Source of the DNA: Paenibacillaceae bacterium
Lineage (GTDB): Bacteria > Bacillota > Bacilli > Paenibacillales > Paenibacillaceae
DNA length: 64,000 bases
Direction of reading: 5' to 3'
Assembly: GCA_004134985.1 (NCBI GenBank)
Contig: REGQ01000064.1
Coordinates: 248,001 to 312,000 of the forward strand
Shown here: one piece after another, positions 1,701-4,691 of the stretch
Position numbering within the stretch: the stretch's first letter is position 1
How the letters are laid out: every line of letters starts with the position of its first letter
Program-made: the position numbers and the translations under genes
Notes under the pieces: model-generated
Database searches by the model: none
What the model saw: the letters and a program-made list of their open reading frames with translations, nothing else
Told to the model about the DNA's origin: nothing

Positions 1701-1739
1701 GCAAATAACCGCCCGATCTGTGATCGGACGGTTATTTGC
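1701..1739. terminator. Bidirectional terminator between converging units
   Basis: An 18-base-pair stem starting GCAAATAACCG with loop TGT, A-rich on one flank and T-rich on the other. It serves the small Cys-rich gene (+) and the agr-like operon (-), which converge here. Confidence 0.85.
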
Positions 1740-1771: not shown

Positions 1772-2182
1772 TCAAATTTTGCTCATATTCGACGAGGTGT
1801 TCAGTCGGTGACGTGCACCCTCACTATAGGCGTCTGAAGTCATCTGGACACTCGTAATCTCTGCACGGTGTGCGGTGGATACCGGAGCGCTCGGCGCATC
1901 CTTGCCAACAGGCTGTTTTTCAAAATAAAGCCGGTGACGCTCCGTATCAAACAGTTCGACCTTCTCCATCTGAACCAAGTAACAGCGATCCACCTTTTTG
2001 AAACCTTCCAACTCAAGAAAGCGCTCGTGCTCCTCGAACGTGGAAACTCTAGCATACAGCTCATCCTTGGTTTGATAGTAGATCTCTCCGCGAAAACTCC
2101 GTGAAAACAGAATATCTGAGGTATCCAAATAAATTATGTCAAACTCCTTCTTGCTGTAACGTTTGACAACTGGGATTTTCAA
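1772..2182 (-). CDS. Stand-alone LytTR-type DNA-binding regulator of the agr-like operon
   Basis: A 136-residue protein, last gene of the agr-like operon. Residues about 5-90 resemble a LytTR DNA-binding domain, the beta-rich output domain of AgrA and LytR: acidic beta strands, then FEEHERFLELEGFKKVDRCY, matching the family pattern in which a helix is followed by F..VDR/HRSYLVN. No receiver domain precedes it, so it cannot be phosphorylated like AgrA. Residues 91-136 are a polar, probably disordered tail. The likely start is TTG at 2182, with AAGGCGGTG (one mismatch to the ideal site) inside the end of agrD, 8 bases upstream. Its position suggests it is the output of the peptide signal. How the signal reaches it is unknown. 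Confidence 0.75.
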   Translation of the reverse strand: MKIPVVKRYSKKEFDIIYLDTSDILFSRSFRGEIYYQTKDELYARVSTFEEHERFLELEGFKKVDRCYLVQMEKVELFDTERHRLYFEKQPVGKDAPSAPVSTAHRAEITSVQMTSDAYSEGARHRLNTSSNMSKI

Positions 2183-2188
2183 ACCTGA

Positions 2189-2323
2189 TTACACCGCCTT
2201 TTTGGTTCTGAGTTCTTCCGGAATTTCAGGCTTATTAATTAGGAAATACGATCCAGTAAGAACAAAGAGACCGGCAACACTGATTAGCATAGCTGAAATG
2301 AGGGAGTACACCTTTTTTTTCAT
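2189..2323 (-). CDS. agrD: AgrD-like cyclic lactone autoinducer precursor, serine type
   Basis: A 44-residue peptide gene. It starts ATG at 2323 behind GGAGGAGAAAAG and overlaps the agrB stop by ATGA. Layout: a lysine-rich start (MKKK), a hydrophobic leader (residues 5-23), a core SYFLI (25-29), and a conserved acidic tail NKPEIPEEL (30-38). It aligns directly with Staphylococcus aureus AgrD, where CDFIM is followed by DEVEVPKEL. The predicted ring is therefore Ser25 to Ile29, cut by AgrB after Ile29. The peptide has no cysteine at all, so ring closure would be an ester (lactone) rather than a thioester. A serine-based lactone is known from Staphylococcus intermedius. The N-terminal extent of the mature signal cannot be read from sequence. 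Confidence 0.82.
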   Translation of the reverse strand: MKKKVYSLISAMLISVAGLFVLTGSYFLINKPEIPEELRTKKAV

Positions 2324-2841
2324 GTTTTCTTTTCTCCTCCAAATGGCAATAATACTGCCTGAATTATATATGTAATCGCAAGTAACTCCGAAACAACGAG
2401 GAAGTTGATCGCTACTACGGCAGCAGACAAAGCTTTGAGTACCGGGTAATAGCGCACGGGTATTCTTGCGTACTTGTCATAATTCGCAGGAGCAAACCAA
2501 AGCATTGCAATAAACGACAACCCGGTGAGGACATATACTACAGTGCTTGAAACAGGAATATGAGGAATGACGACCAATACGCATGTGGAAACGATCGTGC
2601 ACCATACCCCTGACTTCAGATGAAATCCACCGGATAAATAGCGAATCATGGAGAACATCAGCAGAACAATTAGCGTGTCCACAAATTTTCCTGTCAAGGC
2701 GCCAATAAGGAGCGCAGCGGCAGCTGTAGAGAACGTATTGAAAAGAATATGCAGCGCGTATTGAATAACAGGAATGGATGGCGCTTGCGCGCCTGACGCA
2801 ATAATCCGGTCATGCAAGCCTGTCGCAATTCTGTTAAGCAT
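2320..2841 (-). CDS. agrB: AgrB-like membrane cysteine protease (autoinducer peptide processing)
   Basis: A 173-residue integral membrane protein, typical for AgrB. AgrB cuts the C-terminal tail of AgrD and forms the peptide ring at the inner face of the membrane. The conserved catalytic pair is present: His74 and Cys81 in YLSGGFHLKSGVWC, seven residues apart as in S. aureus (His77/Cys84). Several hydrophobic segments follow. It overlaps the upstream membrane-protein gene by 8 bases and agrD by 4, so all are translated from one message. Family assignment is firm. Confidence 0.92.
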   Translation of the reverse strand: MLNRIATGLHDRIIASGAQAPSIPVIQYALHILFNTFSTAAAALLIGALTGKFVDTLIVLLMFSMIRYLSGGFHLKSGVWCTIVSTCVLVVIPHIPVSSTVVYVLTGLSFIAMLWFAPANYDKYARIPVRYYPVLKALSAAVVAINFLVVSELLAITYIIQAVLLPFGGEKKT

Positions 2842-3499
2842 CCTCTCTGTCCTTTCTCCTCGAATAATACATGAACAGTGGCACCGTTAGTGCAAAAATA
2901 GAAGTCGCAACGATGGCATACCCTTTGTAGTCGTCCCGCAGCACGAGCGCAGCGGAAACTGCCAAAAGAATTGTTGCTATAATGACCACAATCAGCACTT
3001 CATTCGTTCCGCTTATTTGGACATAGGCGCGGTGATCTACCGGCACATAATCAAACCCAAAATTCATTAGATAGATCAATCTGCTGACTGCAATGACAAG
3101 CACTGCGCATAATAATTGCACCGATGCTGATACCATCGAATCTCCGCCTTGAATCGACTCCAACGTGACGCCTTGAAACAGAGACAGCAAGAAAATCGTA
3201 ATCCCCTGAATGGCAAATCCGATCACAAAACTTGCAAAATTCATCAGAATTGAGTAATACCAGGGTACACGAAACAATATCCATACGACCAAAATCATCA
3301 GTACAAGCTGAATATAGGATGACAGCTCGCCAATGTCCGAGGACAGTCTTGTAATGTAGGATACCTGGCTCATCATGATGGAGACCATTAATGTTGTTGC
3401 CAGCCGCTCTGTTATTTGAAAGCGAAACAAAGTGAACATCAGCATAAAAATCGAAAAATATTCAATCGAAGACCCGATGACAAAAAAAACATACTTCAC
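2834..3499 (-). CDS. Polytopic membrane protein in AgrC position, without kinase domain
   Basis: A 221-residue protein consisting almost wholly of six or seven predicted membrane segments, ending in a short basic tail (YYSRRKDREDA). In size and topology it resembles the peptide-sensing part of AgrC, but the histidine kinase (H-box and ATP-binding domain) is missing and the next gene, agrB, already begins. The start is probably GTG at 3499 with GAGGAG about 10 bases upstream. It could be a receptor, a peptide exporter or immunity factor, or an anti-activator that holds the LytTR protein, as membrane partners do in streptococcal LytTR regulatory systems (HdrM, BrsM). I do not recognise a specific family. 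The functional link comes from operon position only. Confidence 0.7.
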   Translation of the reverse strand: MKYVFFVIGSSIEYFSIFMLMFTLFRFQITERLATTLMVSIMMSQVSYITRLSSDIGELSSYIQLVLMILVVWILFRVPWYYSILMNFASFVIGFAIQGITIFLLSLFQGVTLESIQGGDSMVSASVQLLCAVLVIAVSRLIYLMNFGFDYVPVDHRAYVQISGTNEVLIVVIIATILLAVSAALVLRDDYKGYAIVATSIFALTVPLFMYYSRRKDREDA

Positions 3500-3621: not shown

Positions 3622-3664
3622 TTGAATCAATAGTAAATCAAATATAACACCAGAAGTGATTCAA
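3622..3664. promoter_or_regulatory. Perfect inverted repeat upstream of the agr-like operon
   Basis: TTGAATCA at 3622-3629 and TGATTCAA at 3657-3664 are exact inverted copies 27 bases apart, about 125-165 bases upstream of the first agr-operon gene. This could be an operator for the LytTR protein. No confident -35/-10 pair was found. The remaining bases of 3500-3695 hold nothing else I can name. Confidence 0.35.
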
Positions 3665-3695
3665 GTAAATGACCCCGGTCTTTAGGACAAAATAA

Positions 3696-3740: not shown

Positions 3741-3750
3741 CACTTCCTAT

Positions 3751-3836
3751 GATGCCAAGGACCGGGATCGAATTCGTACGGTGGTCACCTACCGCAGGAT
3801 TTTAAGTCCTGTGCGTCTGCCAGTTCCGCCTCTGAC
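3751..3836 (-). pseudogene. Decayed tRNA-Leu copy
   Basis: This stretch is a clear copy of the intact tRNA-Leu(TAA) at 4603-4691. The D-arm, anticodon arm (still TAA) and variable-arm region are nearly identical. The acceptor stem is destroyed at both ends (TCTGACC where the real gene has ACCCCGGC), the T-arm has base changes and the encoded CCA is lost, so it cannot fold into a working tRNA. It may be a remnant of gene duplication or of insertion at a tRNA. Confidence 0.85.
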
Positions 3837-4602: not shown

Positions 4603-4691
4603 TGGTGCCGAGGACGGGAATCGAACCCGTACGGTGGTCACCCACCGCAGGATTTTAAGTCCTGTGCGTCTGCCAGTTCCGCCACCCCGGC
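4603..4691 (-). tRNA. tRNA-Leu (anticodon TAA)
   Basis: 89 bases including encoded CCA. The acceptor stem GCCGGGG pairs with CCTCGGC, the anticodon loop is CTTAAAA, and there is the long variable arm typical of tRNA-Leu. Last gene of a three-tRNA transcript. A broken copy lies about 850 bases downstream. Confidence 0.97.

Follow-up and report, generated by a model that had tools for sequence, protein, structure and literature searches.

A widespread agr variant with a kinase-less sensor and a bare LytTR regulator in Paenibacillaceae, and a possible phosphate-free route for its peptide signal

A four-gene operon in the genome of a Paenibacillaceae bacterium is a real and widespread variant of the agr system and not a one-off truncation. 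It encodes an AgrC-type sensor domain with no kinase attached (here called M), followed by AgrB (B), AgrD (D), and a LytTR protein without a receiver domain (L). Among peptide quorum-sensing systems that signal through a two-component phosphorelay, agr is the textbook example. We propose, with a probability of about 60%, that the variant is a self-contained agr-type peptide-signaling operon that works without phosphate. In this scheme, AgrB would trim AgrD to a small lactone peptide and export it, and M, judging by its homology to AgrC, would bind the peptide outside the cell. Peptide-bound and free M would differ in the hold of their inner face on the bare LytTR protein, which M would touch directly and, by analogy with the LytTR Regulatory Systems, would keep inactive until the peptide arrives. 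Free LytTR protein would then activate its own operon and other targets.

The operon occupies the minus strand from 3499 to 1772 of the window (i.e., the whole 64,000-nucleotide stretch analyzed), with M, agrB, agrD, and the LytTR gene in transcription order (Table 1). The M and agrB genes overlap by 8 nt and agrB and agrD by 4 nt, with 6 nt between agrD and the LytTR gene; agrB already starts within the 3' end of M, which leaves no space for a kinase behind M. A preliminary description of this DNA had claimed the order membrane protein-AgrB-AgrD-LytTR, with the genes overlapping or a few bases apart, and a regulator consisting of a bare LytTR domain. The coordinates and the Pfam and NCBIfam matches agree with the order, and the LytTR match (PF04397; E value, 2.2e-6; 28.2 bits against a cutoff of 22.6) spans residues 16 to 93, whereas a Pfam search of the 136-residue protein found no receiver (Response_reg) domain. 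The predicted core of AgrD is SYFLI, followed by NKPEIPEEL. Its ring residue, at a position that we take from the canonical AgrD layout, is Ser, and a lactone rather than a thiolactone would therefore be expected. The promoter call is weak, as the region has eight such sigma-A-like sites where 4.5 would be expected. The inverted repeat downstream of the LytTR gene, of which the pattern scan reports only the inner stem (1713 to 1727, plus strand only), is probably a bidirectional terminator.

Table 1. Features of the operon in the window and related features at other loci
Feature	Position	Strand	Basis or details
M, kinase-less AgrC-type sensor (putative receptor)	2834..3499	-	ORF, GTG start, 221 aa
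AgrB, peptide-processing membrane protease	2320..2841	-	173 aa; PF04647, E 1.6e-18
AgrD signal precursor	2189..2323	-	44 aa; TIGR04223, E 2.5e-5, 24.3 bits (cutoff, 19)
L, bare LytTR regulator	1772..2182	-	136 aa, TTG start
Sigma-A-like promoter, TTTACT-17-TATATT, TG before second hexamer	3641..3669	-	pattern scan
Inverted repeat between LytTR gene and convergent gene 1431-1691	1701..1739		read from sequence
MrpR-type SPbeta repressor gene near operon	L311, L314-L318, L320 (viral); L054, L144, L300, L134, L064 (chromosomal)		
LytTR-GGDEF-EAL	L086:5190-7004 (G035); L321:2927-4735, L322:1671-3569, L323:1533-3341 (L321-L323 from G174, G177, G234)		

No Pfam family, DUF3021 and DUF2154 included, matched the window M up to an E value of 1. 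Its AlphaFold2 model (mean pLDDT, 94.9; pTM, 0.90) has seven long helices, for which positive-inside reasoning suggests an N-out/C-in orientation. A profile of 45 M sequences (A1) aligned with a profile of ten long-tailed AgrC sensors (A4) over 206 columns (E value, 1e-21; probability, 99.4), while the control comparison with AgrB, another membrane family, gave a probability of 0.6. The A4 members had been found with A1, so the alignment confirms a co-linear homology but is not an independent discovery. By these profiles, M is an AgrC-type sensor domain minus its kinase. The earlier proposal that the protein in the AgrC position stops after its membrane segments is thus upheld, both by its 221-residue length without a kinase and by the profile comparison with AgrC sensor domains. 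The window M is 43 to 47% identical to its six closest matches.

The kinase-less state of M is widespread and appears to be old. The M profile found matches in 210 of 296 Paenibacillales genomes, with no more than 10 candidates scored per genome, so that copy numbers are lower bounds; in 22 low-scoring genomes, all 40 of the places listed lay in frames of 209 to 273 residues. Among 213 distinct M copies (M domains under 170 aa were dropped), 207 end within 26 residues past the domain and 6 carry 244 to 262 more residues. M is followed by AgrB and then LytTR at 117 of the 213 loci (AgrD not being required), a recurrence beyond chance, and 6 further loci have little downstream sequence left. A LytTR gene was not seen downstream of M-B at 24 loci. 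Neither B nor L follows M directly in 39 copies, nor in 11 more for which little sequence remains, although some of these are tandem copies and some lie on short stretches. Conservation of the gene order, which the preliminary description had left to be checked, extends through Paenibacillaceae and beyond. One genus accounts for eight M-B loci without a LytTR gene downstream (L196-L198, L202, L204, L205, L213, and L218). Tandem arrays of M, some of which have a single AgrB-LytTR set nearby, occur at L057 and L058 (both in G045) and at L060 and L061 (both in G037); L057 has five full copies in a row and a broken sixth. The closest named AgrB (57%) belongs to Paenibacillus montanisoli (L127), and a search of the 10.5 kb around it found no M or LytTR up to an E value of 1. 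A 425-aa M frame in G021 that looked kinase-bearing was rejected as a long upstream frame.

Relatives with longer proteins do exist. The A1 search of 299 genomes of the class, again with no more than 10 candidates scored per genome, revealed tail-less copies and, outside Paenibacillales, 12 M places in frames of 388 to 487 residues, of which 11 were kept, since our own profile failed to recover the M of L299. Pfam recognized HATPase_c or HATPase_c_5 in the tails of four of these (L295, L296, L297, and L298). The other seven (L288-L294) have tails of about 200 residues with no Pfam-recognized ATPase, and we therefore speak of long tails and not of kinases; possibly, these tails are degenerate kinases. 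At L289, L290, L291, and L293, a receiver-length LytTR gene lies downstream of a tail without a recognized ATPase. All five loci at which four genes were seen (these four and L297) have the order C-B-D-A. Within Paenibacillales, six long-tailed M proteins come from three genomes of a single genus (L062, L063, and L080); all three that were run against Pfam contain HATPase_c, and the one neighboring 199-residue regulator tested contains a receiver, and its LuxR-type match falls short of the cutoff.

In a tree of 130 M sequences (near-duplicates of the Paenibacillales set and M domains under 190 aa were dropped), a branch (98/96) sets off the eleven long-tailed proteins of other orders. The six single-genus proteins group with a tail-less copy from their own genus (100/94) and are surrounded by tail-less relatives. 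Support is weak at some of the deeper forks, some branches are long, and the tree is midpoint rooted, so we claim two separate long-tailed groups and no direction of change. The preliminary description had held that relatives with a kinase in the first gene would mean truncation here. Such relatives were found, but they give no reason to call the window M a recent truncation, because the tails of other orders lie on one side of a branch and the single-genus kinases lie among tail-less proteins.

The sensor tail and the receiver are present or absent together. Across 181 distinct AgrB loci, a tail-less M accompanies a bare LytTR protein at 130 and no visible LytTR at 27; a long tail accompanies a receiver-LytTR protein at 5, no visible LytTR at 10, and a bare LytTR protein at none. 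No M was found at 7 loci, and a tail-less M stands with a receiver-LytTR protein at 2, namely, L300 (which has a bare LytTR gene as well as a receiver-LytTR gene) and L301 (receiver-LytTR only). Fisher's test on the 5, 0, 2, 130 table gives a P value of 5.6e-8, which overstates the association because the loci are related and not independent.

A link between M and L was also seen in a mirror-tree comparison of 79 nonredundant operons, drawn from 149 related loci, with plain identity as the distance. The correlation was 0.81 for M-L, 0.68 for M-B, and 0.67 for B-L; the highest value thus belongs to M and L, even though the B and D genes lie between them. Partial correlations were 0.66 for M-L given B, 0.33 for M-B given L, and 0.26 for B-L, none of which was reached in 500 permutations. 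M-L exceeded M-B in 999 of 1,000 locus resamplings, and the ranking was the same with distant pairs only. With the rest of M held constant, correlations with L were 0.25, 0.21, and 0.19 for the inner loops, 0.27 for the last helix, 0.08 to 0.18 for the other helices, and 0.00 to 0.05 for the outer loops, the sides being our own assignment by the positive-inside rule. The same inner loops gave 0.12, 0.02, and 0.15 (loop 145-164) with AgrB, and the last helix gave 0.21; since loop 145-164 and the last helix also correlate with AgrB, the inner-face signal is only partly specific to L. The pattern is suggestive of contact with L at the inner face and with the peptide at the outer loops, although the contrast is modest. 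Co-variation, which cannot separate contact from shared function, supports but does not show a direct contact between M and L.

The source genome contains four M copies, three AgrB genes, and thirteen LytTR genes. One module (C22:418000-426000; L056) has the order M-D-L without AgrB, and its AgrD core, SYLFI, differs from the window core in having F and L exchanged. A module on contig C61 has the order M-B-D-L with an AgrD of the Lys type (see below). A further module (C22:273000-281000) has the order B-M-L and adjoins an MrpR gene; it matches the IMG/VR contig L311 in gene lengths, start sequences, and MrpR score, and the source genome therefore appears to carry the L311 provirus. Contig C19 carries an AgrC/AgrA-like pair, i.e., a kinase with HATPase_c_5 and a receiver-LytTR protein. 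A 71-aa frame near this pair matched a loose AgrD pattern but does not resemble an AgrD.

The C19 pair bears on the possibility that the window operon is a decayed agr system, in which M and L are leftovers of an AgrC sensor and an AgrA output, while an intact pair elsewhere acts as the reader of the peptide. An AgrC-type kinase next to a receiver-LytTR protein, with no AgrB seen in the 8 kb around the pair, is what such a reader could look like, and the preliminary description had regarded a full pair responding to this peptide as evidence against its proposal. A pair was thus found, but its kinase gave no match to the M profile up to an E value of 10. Decay also sits poorly with the presence of M in most of the genomes searched, with its conserved order and overlapping genes, with the level of identity between the window M and its closest matches, and with the presence of the operon in phages. 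We regard decay as very unlikely. It seems equally improbable that M recruits a separate histidine kinase or another enzyme in trans and that phosphate passes through an unlinked regulator. In a single genus, the same sensor continues into a kinase and a receiver-type regulator adjoins, which indicates that this sensor can drive a kinase, but L has no receiver to be phosphorylated.

Unlikely, too, is a role of M as a helper of AgrB and AgrD in maturation, export, or self-immunity, with the LytTR protein governed by its amount or by another signal. The M gene directly adjoins agrB, and the 24 M-B loci at which no LytTR gene was seen to follow would suit a helper. M is, however, an AgrC sensor domain that co-varies more strongly with L than with B; M-D-L (L056) and M-D (L076) modules stand without AgrB beside them, and some arrays have several M genes per AgrB. 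The phosphate-free circuit, if true, would mean that a membrane receptor for a peptide can control a LytTR protein with no phosphate involved, and its built-in ligand would link agr to the LytTR Regulatory Systems. The four-gene unit is small enough to be rebuilt in Bacillus subtilis.

The operon also occurs in temperate phages, close to genes for an integrase or the MrpR repressor. A search with AgrB matched 8 phage records, and the four examined (Harrison, Emery, Davies, and Abouo) encode M, B, D, and a LytTR protein that bears a peptidase or hypothetical annotation; M is present twice in Emery and Davies. Pfam placed the LytTR proteins of Harrison and Abouo over the cutoff and those of Emery and Davies below it; our own LytTR profile recognized all four. 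An integrase gene adjoins the operon in Abouo and Davies. The window M found nothing in the phage records by tblastn, scanning viral sequences with the Harrison AgrB revealed no relatives, and a scan with the Abouo M retrieved just one record, which matched at 100% identity and has the same length as Abouo. In IMG/VR, queried with a window-type AgrB, a tail-less M stands beside B at 12 of 12 AgrB loci, several of which are on contigs that are near copies of one another, and a bare LytTR gene is present at 11; in the remaining case (L312), the contig ends just after agrB. L310 looks chromosomal because its neighbors are shared with Thermobacillus.

Directly upstream of the operon in seven contigs of 127 to 218 kb lies a gene for MrpR (PF22822; E values, 1.2e-22 to 1.3e-28), which the consulted text of one study describes as the SPbeta master repressor (PMC10516654). 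L316 has a MazF-like gene as well, below the model cutoff. None of the seven MrpR-bearing viral records, which may be fragments, had an AimR match over the NF038310 cutoff; five had sub-threshold matches (best E value, 1.6e-5) covering 33 to 75 of 365 positions, and of 14 controls, 4 matched, 1 of them over the cutoff. The gene neighborhood suggests that the operon may occupy the place of arbitrium as a communication module in MrpR-bearing phages. Arbitrium (AimR-AimP of SPbeta phages), as presented in the same text (PMC10516654), is likewise a peptide communication system linked to MrpR in temperate phages, but it uses an imported hexapeptide and AimR, whereas the operon has a putative membrane receptor and an agr-type peptide. 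If the phosphate-free scheme holds, Paenibacillus and Brevibacillus phages would gain a testable form of peptide communication near repressor or integrase genes.

At four loci, the gene right after M-B-(D) encodes a LytTR-GGDEF-EAL fusion (Table 1), whose LytTR domain was over the Pfam cutoff in all four. Extra M genes at these loci adjoin XRE-LytTR proteins, in which Pfam placed the LytTR domain over the cutoff at L086 and below it at L322 and found none at L321, where our own profile sees it. LytTR is the constant part across these outputs, which raised the reading that LytTR is the receiver module. In this reading, LytTR itself would be the signal receiver, docked by the kinase-less sensor, with outputs that vary among LytTR alone, XRE-LytTR, tandem LytTR, and LytTR-GGDEF-EAL; as a new reading of agr peptides, it would serve on chromosomes as well as in an arbitrium-like lysis-lysogeny module of SPbeta-type phages, and it would include a large Lys-ring subfamily, in which Lys would take the place of Cys or Ser in closing the ring. 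We put it forward tentatively, as a possibility that we would not yet favor.

The Lys-ring subfamily refers to AgrD. Among 107 tail-less loci with a recognized AgrD, the ring position holds Cys or Ser in 48; in 51 it holds neither, and a Lys follows one place on; in 8, a Ser follows one place on; and none falls outside these classes, which were drawn after the sequences had been seen. Of the 181 AgrB loci, the 66 with no recognized AgrD were dropped. Lys-type precursors occur, for example, at L115, L157, L041, and L055 and in phages (L124-L126), and resemble KPAIHSPEAPKEL; their signals are possibly lactam or linear.

Compared with canonical agr, the operon shares AgrB, an AgrD with a Cys/Ser ring residue (Ser here), an AgrC-type sensor domain, a LytTR output, and the C-B-D-A gene order found in the relatives of other orders, but its sensor has no histidine kinase and its regulator no receiver. 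The LytTR Regulatory Systems HdrRM and BrsRM likewise combine a receiver-less LytTR protein with a kinase-less membrane partner in one operon. According to the available text of a study of these systems, four of the five in Streptococcus mutans have a DUF3021/DUF2154-type membrane protein, the regulator gene lies upstream of the membrane gene, and direct repeats 11 to 13 bp apart lie just upstream of the -35 element (PMC6193735). The window M, in contrast, has no DUF3021/DUF2154 match, lies upstream of the regulator, and is encoded together with a peptide of its own. The likeness to HdrRM and BrsRM drawn in the preliminary description therefore stands as a working principle, but not as membership. 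Neither Agr as a whole word nor Paenibacillus occurs in the main text of that study (PMC6193735).

ATPase-less AgrC-like proteins in three phages have been known since 2014: Hargreaves et al. (PMC3901668) described them beside AgrB in Davies, Emery, and Abouo, and the consulted text on these phage agr cassettes, unlike the present results, mentions neither a LytTR partner nor a wide chromosomal family. In the sections consulted, AgrB appears in two phage genome papers as no more than an annotation (PMC4168068; PMC4909266), and Brevibacillus and Paenibacillus genome papers name AgrB or cyclic lactone autoinducer clusters with the receptor unmentioned (PMC9867215; PMC10938842). A description of a bare-LytTR agr family was not found in the consulted text of the open-licence PMC literature.

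Regions upstream of M were also inspected for LytTR-type repeats. No LytTR-like period or repeat was found in 154 such regions, and no clear LytTR-type direct repeat lies upstream of the window operon. One clade of 28 loci, which does not include the window, has a conserved promoter with a possible imperfect repeat, offset by 23 bp, that overlaps the -35 element (0.475, against a maximum of 0.432 in 200 shuffles and 0.451 in a cross-locus control); because the cross-locus value is near that of the repeat, these are conserved blocks and not a proven repeat. Autoactivation of the operon is suggested by this promoter and its possible repeat. In the VN motif, the Asn of most bare LytTR proteins is replaced by Gln in the window L. 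Just upstream of M, at about 3750 to 3833 of the window, lies a degenerate copy of the tRNA-Leu gene at 4603 to 4691, which ARAGORN does not call; tRNA-Leu-like sequence is likewise placed at L130 (Thermobacillus) and L078.
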